Assembly (NCBI RefSeq): GCF_003732545.1
Contig: NZ_AYKF01000121.1
Location: 1 to 64,000, forward strand
Length of the DNA stretch: 64,000 bases
Source: Salinisphaera orenii subsp. halophila YIM 95161
GTDB lineage: Bacteria; Pseudomonadota; Gammaproteobacteria; Nevskiales; Salinisphaeraceae
Reading direction: 5' to 3'
Part shown: in pieces, positions 6,397 to 61,955 of the stretch
Layout of the letters: the number at the start of each line of letters is the position of its first letter
How positions within the stretch are numbered: the first letter of the stretch is position 1
Notes under the pieces: model-generated
Told to the model about the DNA's origin: nothing
What the model saw: the letters and a program-made list of their open reading frames with translations, nothing else
The model's database searches: none
Program-made: the position numbers and the translations under genes

Positions 6397-8100
6397 TCAA
6401 TCGCTGCCCTGATCCGTAACCGCCCCCTTGGACGCCGTGCCCACCAAGCGCGCGTACTTGGCCAGCACGCCGCGCGTGGCGTTCGGCGGCTTGGGCTGCC
6501 AGGCCTTGCGGCGCTCGGCGAGCTCTTGGTCGCTGATCTCCAGATGCAGCTTCCGCTCGCGGGCGTCGATGGTGATGCTGTCGCCTTCCTGCACCAGGGC
6601 GATGTTGCCGCCCACGGCCGCTTCCGGCGCGACGTGGCCGACGACCATGCCGTAGGTGCCGCCGGAGAAGCGCCCGTCGGTGATCAGGCCGACCTTCTCG
6701 CCCAGGCCACGGCCGACAATCGCCGAGGTGGGCGAGAGCATTTCGCGCATGCCAGGGCCGCCCTTCGGGCCTTCGTAGCGGATGACCACGACGTCGCCGG
6801 CGACGACCTTTTCGTCGACGATCGCCTGCATGGCCTCCTCTTCGGAGTCGAACACGCGGGCGGGGCCGGTGATGGCCGGGTTCTTGAGGCCGGTGATCTT
6901 GGCGACACCGCCCTCCTCGGCCAGATTGCCCTTGAGGATGGCCAGATGGCCGGTCTCGTAGAGCGGCTGGTCGATCGGGTAGATGACGGTCTGCCCGGCC
7001 GGCGGCGCGTCGGGCACGTCCGCCAGCACTTCGGCCAGCGTCTGGCCGGTGATGGTGCCGCAGTCGCCGTGCAGCAGGCCGGCGTTGAGCAGCATCTTGA
7101 GCACCTGCGGGATGCCGCCGGCGGCGTGCAGTTCGGTGACGACGTGGCGCCCGGAGGGCTTGAGGTCGCAGAACACGGGCACCTTGCCGCGGATGCGCTC
7201 GAAGTCGTCGATGGTGAGGTTCACGTCCGCGGCCTGGGCGATCGCCAGCAGGTGCAGCACGGCGTTGGTGGAACCGCCCACGGCCATGATGAGCGCGATG
7301 GCGTTCTCGAAGGCCTCGAAGGTGAGCAGGTCGCGCGGCTTGATGTCCTGCGCGATGGCGTTGATGAGCGCCTCGGCGGAGGCGGCGGTGTTCTCGGCCT
7401 TTTCCGCGTCCTCGGCGGCCATGGTCGAGGAATACGGCAGGCTCATGCCCATGGCCTCGAAGGCGGAGGACATGGTGTTGGCGGTGAACATGCCACCGCA
7501 GGAGCCCGCGCCCGGGCAGGCGTTGCACTCGACGCGGCGGACCTGTTCGTCGTCGATGGTGCCGGCCACGCGCTGGCCCACCGCCTCGAACACCGAGACG
7601 ACGGTGAGATCCTCGTCGCTGCCCGGCACGCGGCCCGGCTTGATGGTGCCGCCGTAGACGAAGATCGCCGGGACGTTCATGCGGGCGATGCCGATCATCG
7701 CGCCCGGCATGTTCTTGTCGCAGCCGCCGATGGCGATGACGCCGTCCATGGACTCGCCCTGCACCGCGGTCTCGATGGCGTCGGCGATGACCTCGCGCGA
7801 GACCAGCGAGTACTTCATGCCCGGCGTGCCCATGGAGATGCCGTCGGACACGGTCACGGTGCCGAACATCTGAGACTTGGCGCCGCCGGCTTCCAGCGCG
7901 CCCTCCGCGCGTACGGCCAGCTTGTTCAGGCCCATGTTGCAGGGCGTGATGGTCGAGTAGCCGTTGGCGATACCGACGATCGGCTTGTCGAAGTCCGCAT
8001 CGACATAGCCCATGGCGCGCAGCATGGCGCGGTTGGGCGCACGCGCGGTGCCCTGGGTGGCGACGCGACTGCGACGGTTGAGCGGCTTGTCCTCGGCCAT
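6397..8100 (-). CDS. ilvD: Dihydroxy-acid dehydratase
   Basis: IlvD dehydrates 2,3-dihydroxy-3-methylbutanoate and its C6 analogue in valine, isoleucine and leucine synthesis, using an iron-sulfur cluster in the cytosol. The 567-residue protein has the family cysteines in [21 protein letters not shown] and [16 protein letters not shown], and near the C-terminus [14 protein letters not shown]. Length is normal for the shorter IlvD subclass. The start [11 protein letters not shown] at 8100 has an AGGGG site upstream; an in-frame extension to 8193 lacks family similarity. It is transcribed alone towards the cassette block and ends at a strong terminator. Chromosomal integrons of Xanthomonas are known to lie beside ilvD, which makes this location notable. 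Confidence 0.95.
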
Positions 8101-8482
8101 GGCACGACCCCTGCGGTTTGGAAGGCCGGCTATTATGCCGATTCGCGTGCATGACGCACAAAAACCGTTGCGCGCGGTTCGATATACGGCCAACGCGCGC
8201 CGCCGGACGGTTGCAGCAGACGTTTTTGATGCGGATGGCGGCCGGGTTCGATGCCCGGCGCGTGTCCCGAGCGCTCGGCCCGTGCCGGCGGACCGCGACC
8301 GCCAGAGTCGACACGCTACGCTCGGGCCGCGCTTCGGCGTGCCGTCAGCAAATTACACCGGGCAAGCGGCGGCCGGTTGGACACGCCCGCAGGCCCACGT
8401 CTTCGGCCGGCGATACGCCACGCTCCCGTCGCCGTTTCGGCCCGGCCGCGACGGCGAGCCCGGCGACCCGCACCGCGCCGAT

Positions 8483-8608
8483 GCGACCTGCGACCTGCGA
8501 CCTGCGACCTGCGACCGGCGACCGGCGACCGGCGACCGGCGACCGGCGACCGGCATCCGGCATCCGGCATCCGGCATCCGGCATCCGGCATCCGGCATCC
8601 GGCATCCG
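8483..8608. repeat. Heptamer tandem repeat, 18 units in three homogeneous blocks
   Basis: Four units of GCGACCT (8483-8510) are followed by six of GCGACCG (8511-8552) and eight of GCATCCG (8553-8608), all in perfect register. Each block differs from its neighbour by one or two fixed substitutions, as if single variants spread by slippage. The rest of 8101-8845 holds no gene that I can support apart from the peroxiredoxin terminator. Confidence 0.95.
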
Positions 8609-8791
8609 ATGATCGGCTAGGCCGAACGTCGTATGACAAGCGGCCTCGGGTGTTTCCGGCACGTCGGGCACCGCGTGGCGGTTCCTTCCACGCGCGCGGC
8701 CGGAGCCGGCCAAGATCCGCCCGGGCTACGCCAGCCGCGATCGGGACCAGCGCCGTGCGACGGGCCCGCCGAATCCGTTTCGCCCGGGCAC

Positions 8792-8821
8792 AAAAAAGGC
8801 GCGACCCGAGCGGGCCGCGCC
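8792..8821 (-). terminator. Rho-independent terminator of the peroxiredoxin gene
   Basis: A GC-rich hairpin with GGCGCG/CGCGCC outer arms and inner CCCG/CGGG pairing is followed on the minus strand by six T residues, 25 bases after the stop codon. Confidence 0.85.
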
Positions 8822-8845
8822 TCATGCGCCGATTGCAGCGGCCGA

Positions 8846-9481
8846 CTATTTGTTCGGCTGCTTGGTCATGCGCAGGTAGGGCTTGAGCTCGTTCCAACCG
8901 GCCGGGAAGAGTTTCTCGGCTTCCTCGTTGGACAGTGCCGGCGAAACGATGACGTCGTCGCCGTCCTCCCAGTTCGCCGGCGTGGTTACCTTGTAGTTGT
9001 CGGTGAGCTGCAGCGAATCGATCACGCGCAGGATCTCGTTGAAGTTGCGCCCGGCGCTCTTCGGGTAGGTGAGCGTCATGCGGATCTTCTTGTTCGGGTC
9101 GATCACGAAGACGCTGCGCACCGTGGAGGTGTCGCCGGCGTTCGGGTGGATCATGTCGTAGAGCTCGGAGACCTTGCGATCGGTGTCGCCGATCAGCGGC
9201 AGGTTCAGGCCGCAGCCCTGTGTTTCCTCGATGTCCCTGGCCCAGGCCTTGTGGTCCTCGACCGAGTCCACCGAGACGACGATCGCCTTGGCGTTGCGCT
9301 TGTCGAACTCGTCCTTGAGCTTGGAGGTCGCGCCGATCTCGGTGGTGCACACCGGCGTGAAGTCCGCCGGGTGGGACATCAGCACGCCCCACTGGTCGCC
9401 CAGCCAGTCGTGAAAGTTGATCGTGCCTTCGGTTGTCTCGGCCGTGAAATCCGGCGCGGTATCGCCCAGTCGCAGACTCAT
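8846..9481 (-). CDS. 1-Cys (Prx6-type) peroxiredoxin
   Basis: A cytosolic thiol peroxidase that reduces hydrogen peroxide and organic peroxides. The peroxidatic Cys45 is in SHPADFTPVCTTE, preceded by the usual N-terminal GDTAPDF. Length (211 residues) and the long C-terminal region with YPKSAGRNFNEILRVIDSLQ and a tail ending near TPANW match the Prx6 subfamily rather than typical AhpC. A second cysteine in TQGCGLNLP is not in the resolving position of 2-Cys enzymes. It is monocistronic, with its own terminator, and lies between ilvD and the divergently placed cutA-dsbD operon. Confidence 0.93.
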   Translation of the reverse strand: MSLRLGDTAPDFTAETTEGTINFHDWLGDQWGVLMSHPADFTPVCTTEIGATSKLKDEFDKRNAKAIVVSVDSVEDHKAWARDIEETQGCGLNLPLIGDTDRKVSELYDMIHPNAGDTSTVRSVFVIDPNKKIRMTLTYPKSAGRNFNEILRVIDSLQLTDNYKVTTPANWEDGDDVIVSPALSNEEAEKLFPAGWNELKPYLRMTKQPNK

Positions 9482-59339: not shown

Positions 59340-61955
59340 TCAGGCGCTTTCCAGGGCGGGTTCCGCCGGCGCGGGATGCGCCGGCGCGGACGGGGATTTC
59401 AGGCGTTCGTTGTGCGGGTCGTAGAGCGCGCGGCAGCCGACCGCATCGACCCGGATCGGATACTGTTCGCCGAAGTACTCGAGCCGCAGCTCCTGGCCGA
59501 TGCAGGCGTAGGCGGCGGGCAGATAGGCGAGCGCGATGTTGGCGCCGACCGAGGGCCCGTAGGCCAGACTGGCGGCATAGGAGCGCCGCCCCAGCGTATC
59601 CACCGGCACCTCGCCGCTCTCCGGATCGATGAGCGGCCACTGGCCGACCGGGTAACGGGCCACGCCCTCGGCGTCGACGTTGTCCAGCAGCGTCAGCGTG
59701 CACAGATAGGCGGGCTGGCACTCGCGCCCGCGCTGTTCCAGATAGGCGGCCCGGCCGTGGAAGTCCGCGCTCTTGACCTTCGGCCGGGCGAGACCGGCCT
59801 CGCACAGGTTGTAGTCGGTCAGCAGATCCACGTTCTGCAGCCGCAGGCTCTTCTCGAGCCGTCGCGAGTTGGCGTAGGTCTCGATGCCGACCGGGGTCAC
59901 ACCGGCCTCGAACAGCAGATCCCAGACCGCCAGCCCGTAGGAGAACGGCATGTACAGCTCCCAGCCGTACTCGCCGACATAGGAGATTCGAAACGCCCAT
60001 ACCGGCATGCCGCGCAGGCGGATCTCGCGCGCGCTCGCGAACGGCAGGCGGTCGTCGTCCAGCAGCCGCGGGTCGTCGACGAGCGCGGCGAGCGTGGCAT
60101 GGGCGTTCGGCCCCCAGAGGCCGAGCGTGGCGAGCGTGTCGGTGCGGTCGTCGATGGCCACACGCGCCCCGCGATCCTCGCGCATCCGCTGTATCCAGAC
60201 CCGGTCGCGATGGCCGGTGTCGCCGCCGCAGATCACGCGGTAGGCCTCAGTCGCCAATCGCACGACGGTGAGATCGGACCGCACGCCGCCGTGGGCGTCG
60301 AGAAAATGCGTATACACGCCCTTGCCGATCGGCGTGGAGCCGCCCACCCGGGCGACCGACAGATACTCGAGCAAGGCCTCCGCATCCGGCCCGGAGACAT
60401 CGAAGATGGCGAAATGGGACAGGTTGATCATGCCCACGTCGTCGGCGAGCTTGAGGTGCTCGGCGTTGGACACGCGCCAGAAATGCCGGGCATCCCACTC
60501 GGCGGCGCGTTCGGGCACGCGATCGCCGTAGGTCTCGAGCAGATGCGCGTTGGCGGCATAGCCGTGCGCGCGCTCCCAGCCGGCGGCCTCCATGAAGTGT
60601 CCGCCGAGTTCGCGCTCGCGCGGCCAGAACGGACTGCGGCGCAGGTCGCGCCCGCTGGCGTAGGGCTCGCGCGGATGAACGGCCGGATCGTAGACTTTGC
60701 GGGCGGTCTCGCGGGCGCGGCCGAAGACATGGGCCGGCGTCTTCTGCACCGGATAGAAGCGGGCGATATCGATGCCGCAGGGATCGACCGCCGGCCGGCC
60801 GTGGGTCATCCAGTCCGCCAGGACCTTGCCCATGCCGGGCCCGTCCTTGACCCAGACGGCCTCTCCGAACCAGAGCCCGCGCGTCTCCGGCGACTCGCCC
60901 AGCAGCGAGCCGCCGTCGGCCGAGATCGACATGAGCCCGTTGAACGAGGCCTTCTCGTCCCAGCCGAGCTCGCCCAGGATCGGCGTCATCTCGATCGCGC
61001 GCTCGTAGCCGCTCATCACCTGTTCGATATCGAGATCGCGCATCGAGGGCGACATCCGCGCGGCATCCGGCTCGGCGATGTCGGCGGGCTGCACCAGCCG
61101 CGGCTCGGTGGGTTCGTAGTAGCCCCATTCCAGCTTGCCGCCCTCGGCGGTGGCCGGGTCGCCGGTATCGCGCATATAGGACGAGTTGCCCTGATCGCGG
61201 AACAGCGGATACCCGATCTCGCGGCCGGTCCCGGCGAAGGTGTCGAAGGGCCCGAAGAACATCAGCGGATGCTCGAACGGCATCAGCGGCAGCGCGGCAC
61301 CGGCCATGGCGGCCAGCGGCGGCCCCCAGATGCCCGCCGACAGCACCACGACGTCGGTGCGGATATAGCCCCGGCGGGTCTCGACGCCGCAGACCCGGCC
61401 GTTGCGGACGTCGATATCCAGCGCCGGCGTGTGGCCGAAGGTCTGCAGCCGGCCGCTGGCCACGGCACGCTCGATCAGCACGCCGGCGACGCGCTGGGAG
61501 CGCGGCACCACCAGCCCCGCGTCCGGGTCCCACATCGCGCCCTGGATCAGGTCCTGCTCCAGCAGCGGGAACCGTCGCTTGGCTTCCGCCGGGCCGATCA
61601 GCGAGACGTTGGTACCGAAGGCCTTGCCCGAGCCGACCTTGCGCTCGAGCTCGGCCATCCGCGCGTCGTCGCCCACACGGGCGACCTCCAGGCCGCCGAC
61701 CCGGCTGTAATGGCCGAGCGACTCGTAGAACTGCCGGCTGTAGACCGTGGTGTAGCACGACATGCGGTCGTGCGAGGTCATGTAGCAGAAGTCGGAGGCG
61801 TGCGAGGTGGAGCTGATGTCCGACGGCACCGCCGACTTGTCCAGCCCGACGATGTTCGACCAGCCCTGTTCGATCAGGTGATGGGCGACCGAGGCGCCGA
61901 CGATGCCGCCCTGGCCGACGATCACCACATCCGCTTGTTCGGGTAACTTAGACAT
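59340..61955 (-). CDS. Dimethylglycine/sarcosine dehydrogenase-like, FAD and GcvT domains
   Basis: An 871-residue fusion: an N-terminal DAO-type FAD domain (ADVVIVGQGGIVGASVAHHLIEQG; the covalent-flavin type SHASDFCYM region near residue 52), a FAO_M linker (about 385-440), and a C-terminal GcvT-like THF domain with INLSHFAIFDVSGPDAEALLEYL and SYVGEYGWELYMP, ending in the aminomethyltransferase C-domain. It would demethylate an N-methyl compound and pass the C1 unit to THF. Dimethylglycine is the likely substrate from context, sarcosine the alternative. The second half is longer than minimal GcvT. It follows metF-like by 47 bp. Confidence 0.88.
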   Translation of the reverse strand: MSKLPEQADVVIVGQGGIVGASVAHHLIEQGWSNIVGLDKSAVPSDISSTSHASDFCYMTSHDRMSCYTTVYSRQFYESLGHYSRVGGLEVARVGDDARMAELERKVGSGKAFGTNVSLIGPAEAKRRFPLLEQDLIQGAMWDPDAGLVVPRSQRVAGVLIERAVASGRLQTFGHTPALDIDVRNGRVCGVETRRGYIRTDVVVLSAGIWGPPLAAMAGAALPLMPFEHPLMFFGPFDTFAGTGREIGYPLFRDQGNSSYMRDTGDPATAEGGKLEWGYYEPTEPRLVQPADIAEPDAARMSPSMRDLDIEQVMSGYERAIEMTPILGELGWDEKASFNGLMSISADGGSLLGESPETRGLWFGEAVWVKDGPGMGKVLADWMTHGRPAVDPCGIDIARFYPVQKTPAHVFGRARETARKVYDPAVHPREPYASGRDLRRSPFWPRERELGGHFMEAAGWERAHGYAANAHLLETYGDRVPERAAEWDARHFWRVSNAEHLKLADDVGMINLSHFAIFDVSGPDAEALLEYLSVARVGGSTPIGKGVYTHFLDAHGGVRSDLTVVRLATEAYRVICGGDTGHRDRVWIQRMREDRGARVAIDDRTDTLATLGLWGPNAHATLAALVDDPRLLDDDRLPFASAREIRLRGMPVWAFRISYVGEYGWELYMPFSYGLAVWDLLFEAGVTPVGIETYANSRRLEKSLRLQNVDLLTDYNLCEAGLARPKVKSADFHGRAAYLEQRGRECQPAYLCTLTLLDNVDAEGVARYPVGQWPLIDPESGEVPVDTLGRRSYAASLAYGPSVGANIALAYLPAAYACIGQELRLEYFGEQYPIRVDAVGCRALYDPHNERLKSPSAPAHPAPAEPALESA

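Follow-up and report, generated by a model that had tools for sequence, protein, structure and literature searches.

What gives rise to a run of 18 perfect heptamers between two genes of Salinisphaera orenii subsp. halophila YIM 95161, and does it serve either of them? Within the analyzed stretch of 64,000 nucleotides (the window), the array occupies positions 8483-8608 (126 bp) and falls into three pure blocks without assigned strand: four units of GCGACCT (8483..8510), six of GCGACCG (8511..8552) and eight of GCATCCG (8553..8608). The original prediction was exact in coordinates, units and block sizes. Tandem Repeats Finder covered the array with period-7 rows at 8483-8554 and 8550-8608, besides rows of period 14 and 21. 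Compared with itself at an offset of seven, the array is equal at 116 of 119 positions, with a longest unbroken run of 52; when the 64-kb window was shuffled 20 times by mononucleotide, period-7 runs reached at most 10. A random order of the 18 units would yield three pure blocks with a probability of 6.5e-7, about once per 1.5 million orders. At least three exact heptamer units in succession were found in the window at this site only, where they appear as the three blocks. Being a perfect head-to-tail iteration of a short unit, the array belongs to the bacterial simple sequence repeats (unit of up to 9 nt). We consider it very probable that the array is a noncoding repeat of this kind which grew by slippage and most likely has no dedicated function; within this explanation, slippage as the mechanism, the sequence in which the blocks arose and the absence of a function are inferred.

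The array lies between two tandem genes on the minus strand, first prx, encoding a peroxiredoxin (8846..9481; NF009668, 214.6 bits at a cut-off of 211), and second ilvD, encoding dihydroxy-acid dehydratase (6397..8103; TIGR00110, 773.6 bits at a cut-off of 618.15). Its predicted location upstream of ilvD was therefore right, while the accompanying statement that it is divergent from nothing else is ambiguous, since both genes run in the same direction. The array is separated from the start codon of ilvD by 380 bp and from the prx stop by 238 bp. A terminator-like hairpin follows prx (8796..8823, minus strand), and the array begins 188 bp beyond its stem. As the terminator scan expects 0.8 such sites in shuffles, support for this hairpin comes from similar hairpins seen by eye in congeners. 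On the other side, 322 bp separate the array from the -35-like hexamer of a promoter-like pair, TTGTGC-N18-CATAAT (8132..8161, minus strand), which begins 58 bp before the ilvD start. This pair was found via congener comparison and is proposed from sequence match and conservation; a sigma-70 scan reported no site, including this pair, in 8000-9000. A loose form of the pattern, composed after viewing the sequences, occurs upstream of ilvD in all 12 genomes of the genus sample in which ilvD was found, as TTGTGY-N18 in eight, TTGTAT-N17 in three and TTGGTG-N18 in one. Distances from the match to the first aligned ilvD codon range from 53 to 152 bp, and there is a second match in one genome.

The claim that the array is noncoding held up: it lies in the prx-ilvD gap, a six-frame Pfam search of this gap was negative at E 0.1, and all 11 other congener gaps are without a period-7 array. 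The absence of a Pfam match and of the array in these gaps ruled out a coding repeat. A known RNA was likewise rejected, as the window contains nothing that reaches an Rfam gathering score.

The history of the gap was approached through 14 genomes of the genus including our own. At the threshold applied, ilvD was found in 12 of them, and the gap was sized in those 12. It measures 748 bp here, 954 bp in G012, 116-238 bp in eight genomes, 359 bp in G011 and 1357 bp in G013, all lengths being uncertain by up to about 25 bp because they are set by alignment ends. None of the 11 other congeners carries an exact period-7 array of at least 17 bp in the orthologous gap. A four-unit pattern of the array class matched nowhere in 12 congeners, partly draft genomes; in the thirteenth, G012, it matches at another locus only. 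G012 is the nearest of the congeners examined for the gap, with 97.6% DNA identity around ilvD (43 mismatches in 1774 bp). The ends of the region align between the two genomes, at 93.5% over 217 bp including the prx end and the terminator, and at 100% over 179 bp including the ilvD start; the middle of the G012 gap is non-homologous to the middle here. Consequently, gain in our strain and loss or replacement in G012 are not separable: either the array is young here, or it was lost or replaced there. The G012 gap also has a 30-bp, partly palindromic motif in two copies (G012:C15:60682-60711 and 60868-60897); the exact pattern is confined to these two sites in G012 and absent from the genome of the window.

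The edges of the enlarged gap suggest how the extra DNA may have arrived. The array sits in a 623-bp stretch without strand (8165..8787) between two direct copies of TTTTTGTGC on the minus strand, one by ilvD (8156..8164), whose last six bases are the -35-like TTGTGC, and one at the tail of the prx terminator (8788..8796). By eye, terminator tail and -35-like hexamer form one stretch, TTTTTTGTG, in six congeners (G009, G005, G003, G004, G008 and G006), the genome of the window and G012 have two copies, one on each side of the extra stretch, and tail and hexamer are likewise separate in G010, G011 and G013. An insertion with short duplication probably took place before the split from G012, and the inside would have been replaced since. 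As a lead, the 623-bp stretch might be a transposon remnant, its flanking TTTTTGTGC copies resembling a target-site duplication. No Pfam match in the gap accompanies this lead. A repeat search listed no inverted repeats there either, but it also missed the hairpin of the prx terminator, which makes this result weak.

Inside the enlarged gap, a GCGACC-type unit would have duplicated and then expanded by replication slippage. Substituted units, GCGACCT and GCGACCG and then GCATCCG, would have expanded in turn without mixing, leaving three pure blocks. Lying beyond the prx terminator and far upstream of the promoter-like pair of ilvD, the array would be tolerated without a dedicated function. One step of this series is missing: two neighboring bases separate block 2 from block 3, and none of the 18 units represents either of the possible single-step intermediates.

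Indirect support for slippage comes from a second locus. The proposed genome search for related heptamers turned up one further array of this class (G000:C73:1593-1628, L002), whose counterpart in G012 lies at G012:C19:36657-36704 (L004). The sister array has 5 units here and 7 in G012, a difference of 14 bp, although both counts come from draft assemblies and a miscount in either is possible. Neither flank (877 bp upstream, 649 bp downstream) shows a substitution, and a change by whole units beside unchanged flanks is what slippage predicts. Farther out, the whole 3-kb match contains 55 mismatches, mostly near one end. The sister array lies near a frame read as a putative small subunit of a TRAP transporter. 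Slippage, as originally proposed from the unmixed blocks, is thus supported indirectly by this two-unit difference; block purity is compatible with it and no proof.

How unusual pure blocks are was assessed among the matches listed of a wider scan for the unit class (at least 119 arrays). Unit types present once were dropped first, and 33 arrays then had at least two unit types, each present at least twice; the other 86 were left out. Among the matches listed, 13 of these 33 were block-pure, comprising 11 of the 22 arrays with fewer than 13 units and 2 of the 11 that have at least 13. Short arrays thus often have pure blocks and long ones more rarely do; the focal array, with 18 units of three pure types, is among the cleaner ones. 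With only 2 of 11 long arrays block-pure, simple slippage usually leaves more mixing than seen here, which counts against our preferred explanation. Such limited mixing would fit an array of recent origin, or repeated growth confined to one place at a time. In two other arrays (L154 and L080), the order of the heptamer unit types repeats about every three units, as though growth had gone by 21-bp steps.

A different emphasis, which we regard as unlikely, is that arrays of the GCRWCCB type arise repeatedly in unrelated phyla because the replication machinery preferentially expands units of this length, perhaps also of this kind of sequence, the focal array being a recent and unusually cleanly staged case. 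A scan for four units of GCRWCCB in one genome per species returned at least 119 stretches, and the matches listed (80 by name) include Streptomyces, Lewinella, Vibrio, Chloroflexi, Planctomycetota and Luteimonas; the pattern was composed after seeing the focal array and the scan had no reversed control. At the level of the order, 5 of 85 genomes match the class pattern and 2 match its reversed control. In a phylum sample of 299 genomes, four units of the core GCRWCC occur at period 7 in 6 genomes (5 besides our own) and at period 8 in 2, a difference too small to show a preference for period. The reversed control gave 2 genomes at period 7 and 1 at period 8 in the same sample; its period-7 match in our own genome reads the focal array itself, at 8487.

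Exact tandem arrays were also counted by period in the listed loci (at least 119), over 849,096 bp outside the selected arrays. With at least four units, 8 arrays have period 7, 2 have period 6, and periods 4 and 9 have 1 each, while periods 5, 8, 10, 11 and 12 gave none. With at least three units, the same loci contain 20 arrays at period 7, 19 at period 4, 8 at period 6, 3 at period 5, and 2 each at periods 8 and 9. This count is no fair test of period, because the genomes were chosen for a heptamer array and some arrays share a locus. The abundance of heptanucleotides has been surveyed before, reportedly by Mrazek et al. in 2007. According to PMC4679880, this earlier survey found that heptanucleotides outnumber the other classes in most genomes, and proposed that 7 nt is the length that contacts the polymerase. 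In our data, the class is widespread and infrequent, and no privilege of its sequence or period is demonstrable. Two further arrays come from genomes of the order. In another family, L003 (G046:C13, 1500-2120) carries 17 units of GCATCCG as an exact run at 1501-1619, followed by some 500 bp that resemble decayed heptamers by eye. L005 (G057:C7, 1497-1541) holds a block-wise array of GACTTGC units followed by TGCGACC units.

An assembly artefact, in the array as such or in its exact length, appears very unlikely. The genome is a draft of 153 contigs and may be a metagenome bin, and long heptamer repeats were not resolved by short reads in the work reported in PMC8262952. However, the array is internal to a contig of 109,986 bp, three distinguishable ordered blocks are hard to produce by misassembly, and similar arrays occur in other assemblies. 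The genome is rated 98.66% complete, yet a 16S search of it was empty, as in a metagenome bin; this sign is weak, since the same search succeeded in only 9 of 14 control genomes.

That the array is a variable regulator of ilvD we judge highly improbable. In this reading, a long 5' leader or the region before the promoter would change in spacing or structure with copy number, comparable to the (ATCTTTC)n repeat of Haemophilus hmw1A, where 7-bp repeats in the promoter region tune expression (PMC8262952, PMC2424069). The two share a 7-bp tandem repeat upstream of a gene with similar copy number, and the sister array does differ by whole units between species. In these accounts, however, the phase-variation repeat of hmw1A lies across boxes of two promoters and adjusts expression of an adhesin, and regulatory heptamers overlap a promoter, as in hmw1A, or the start of a coding sequence, as in neuO (PMC13001214). 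The focal array does not overlap the predicted promoter boxes, from which it lies 322 bp upstream, with 380 bp to the start codon, and ilvD encodes a biosynthetic enzyme and is no surface gene. Since the conserved pair lies that much closer to ilvD and G012 has the identical pair without the array, control of ilvD by the array is unlikely, contrary to the suggested effect on its expression. The array is also missing from all 11 other congener gaps.

The GGGNATC and GGGGA(T/C)T heptamers of Xanthomonas and Nostoc described by Rehm et al. 2015 (PMC4692102) resemble our case in their 7-bp unit, in perfect or mixed arrays, in a mostly intergenic position, often between genes of the same direction, and in a comparable copy number of 2 to 26. 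The focal array, also an intergenic 7-bp tandem repeat, differs in having no GGG tract, so that the basis for a quadruplex is missing. The Xanthomonas-type repeats are also far more dispersed, with 186 and 183 arrays (at least two units) in two Xanthomonas genomes according to that source, against two (at least three units) here, counting this unit class only. That the array acts through DNA or RNA structure (quadruplex, hairpin or extra terminator), as has been discussed for these GGGNATC repeats, is extremely unlikely: its minus strand does have GG every seven bases with 15 overlapping four-GG matches, and units of blocks 2 and 3 join at the self-pairing CCGG, but neither strand contains GGG or a G3 quadruplex motif, and RNA folding of 8440-8680 was no better than shuffles on both strands (z -0.44 and 0.29). 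The quadruplex class and strong structure were accordingly rejected.

Bacterial heptamer repeats are already in print (PMC4692102, PMC4679880, PMC6749651). The TAACTGA heptamers described by MacGregor 2015 (PMC4679880) in Beggiatoaceae, cyanobacteria and some Bacteroidetes are likewise head-to-tail, mostly intergenic and spread over scattered lineages, and related strains differ mostly in 7-nt steps. In contrast to the focal unit, as described there, TAACTGA forms 169 sets in a Maribeggiatoa genome, mainly just upstream of start codons, while the focal array is 380 bp away from one. The survey of heptamer-derived bacterial satellites in PMC6749651 likewise describes short heptamer-built satellites with families common to unrelated species; the heptamer named there, GATAGRA, differs from the focal units. 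Against this background, the array is an ordinary noncoding heptamer repeat, probably born by slippage and most likely neutral, and one more case of a described class; it opens no new biological system. What it does indicate for these bacteria is that heptamer repeats can change fast, by two whole units at the sister locus versus no substitution in about 1.5 kb of adjoining DNA, and such arrays could serve as strain markers.
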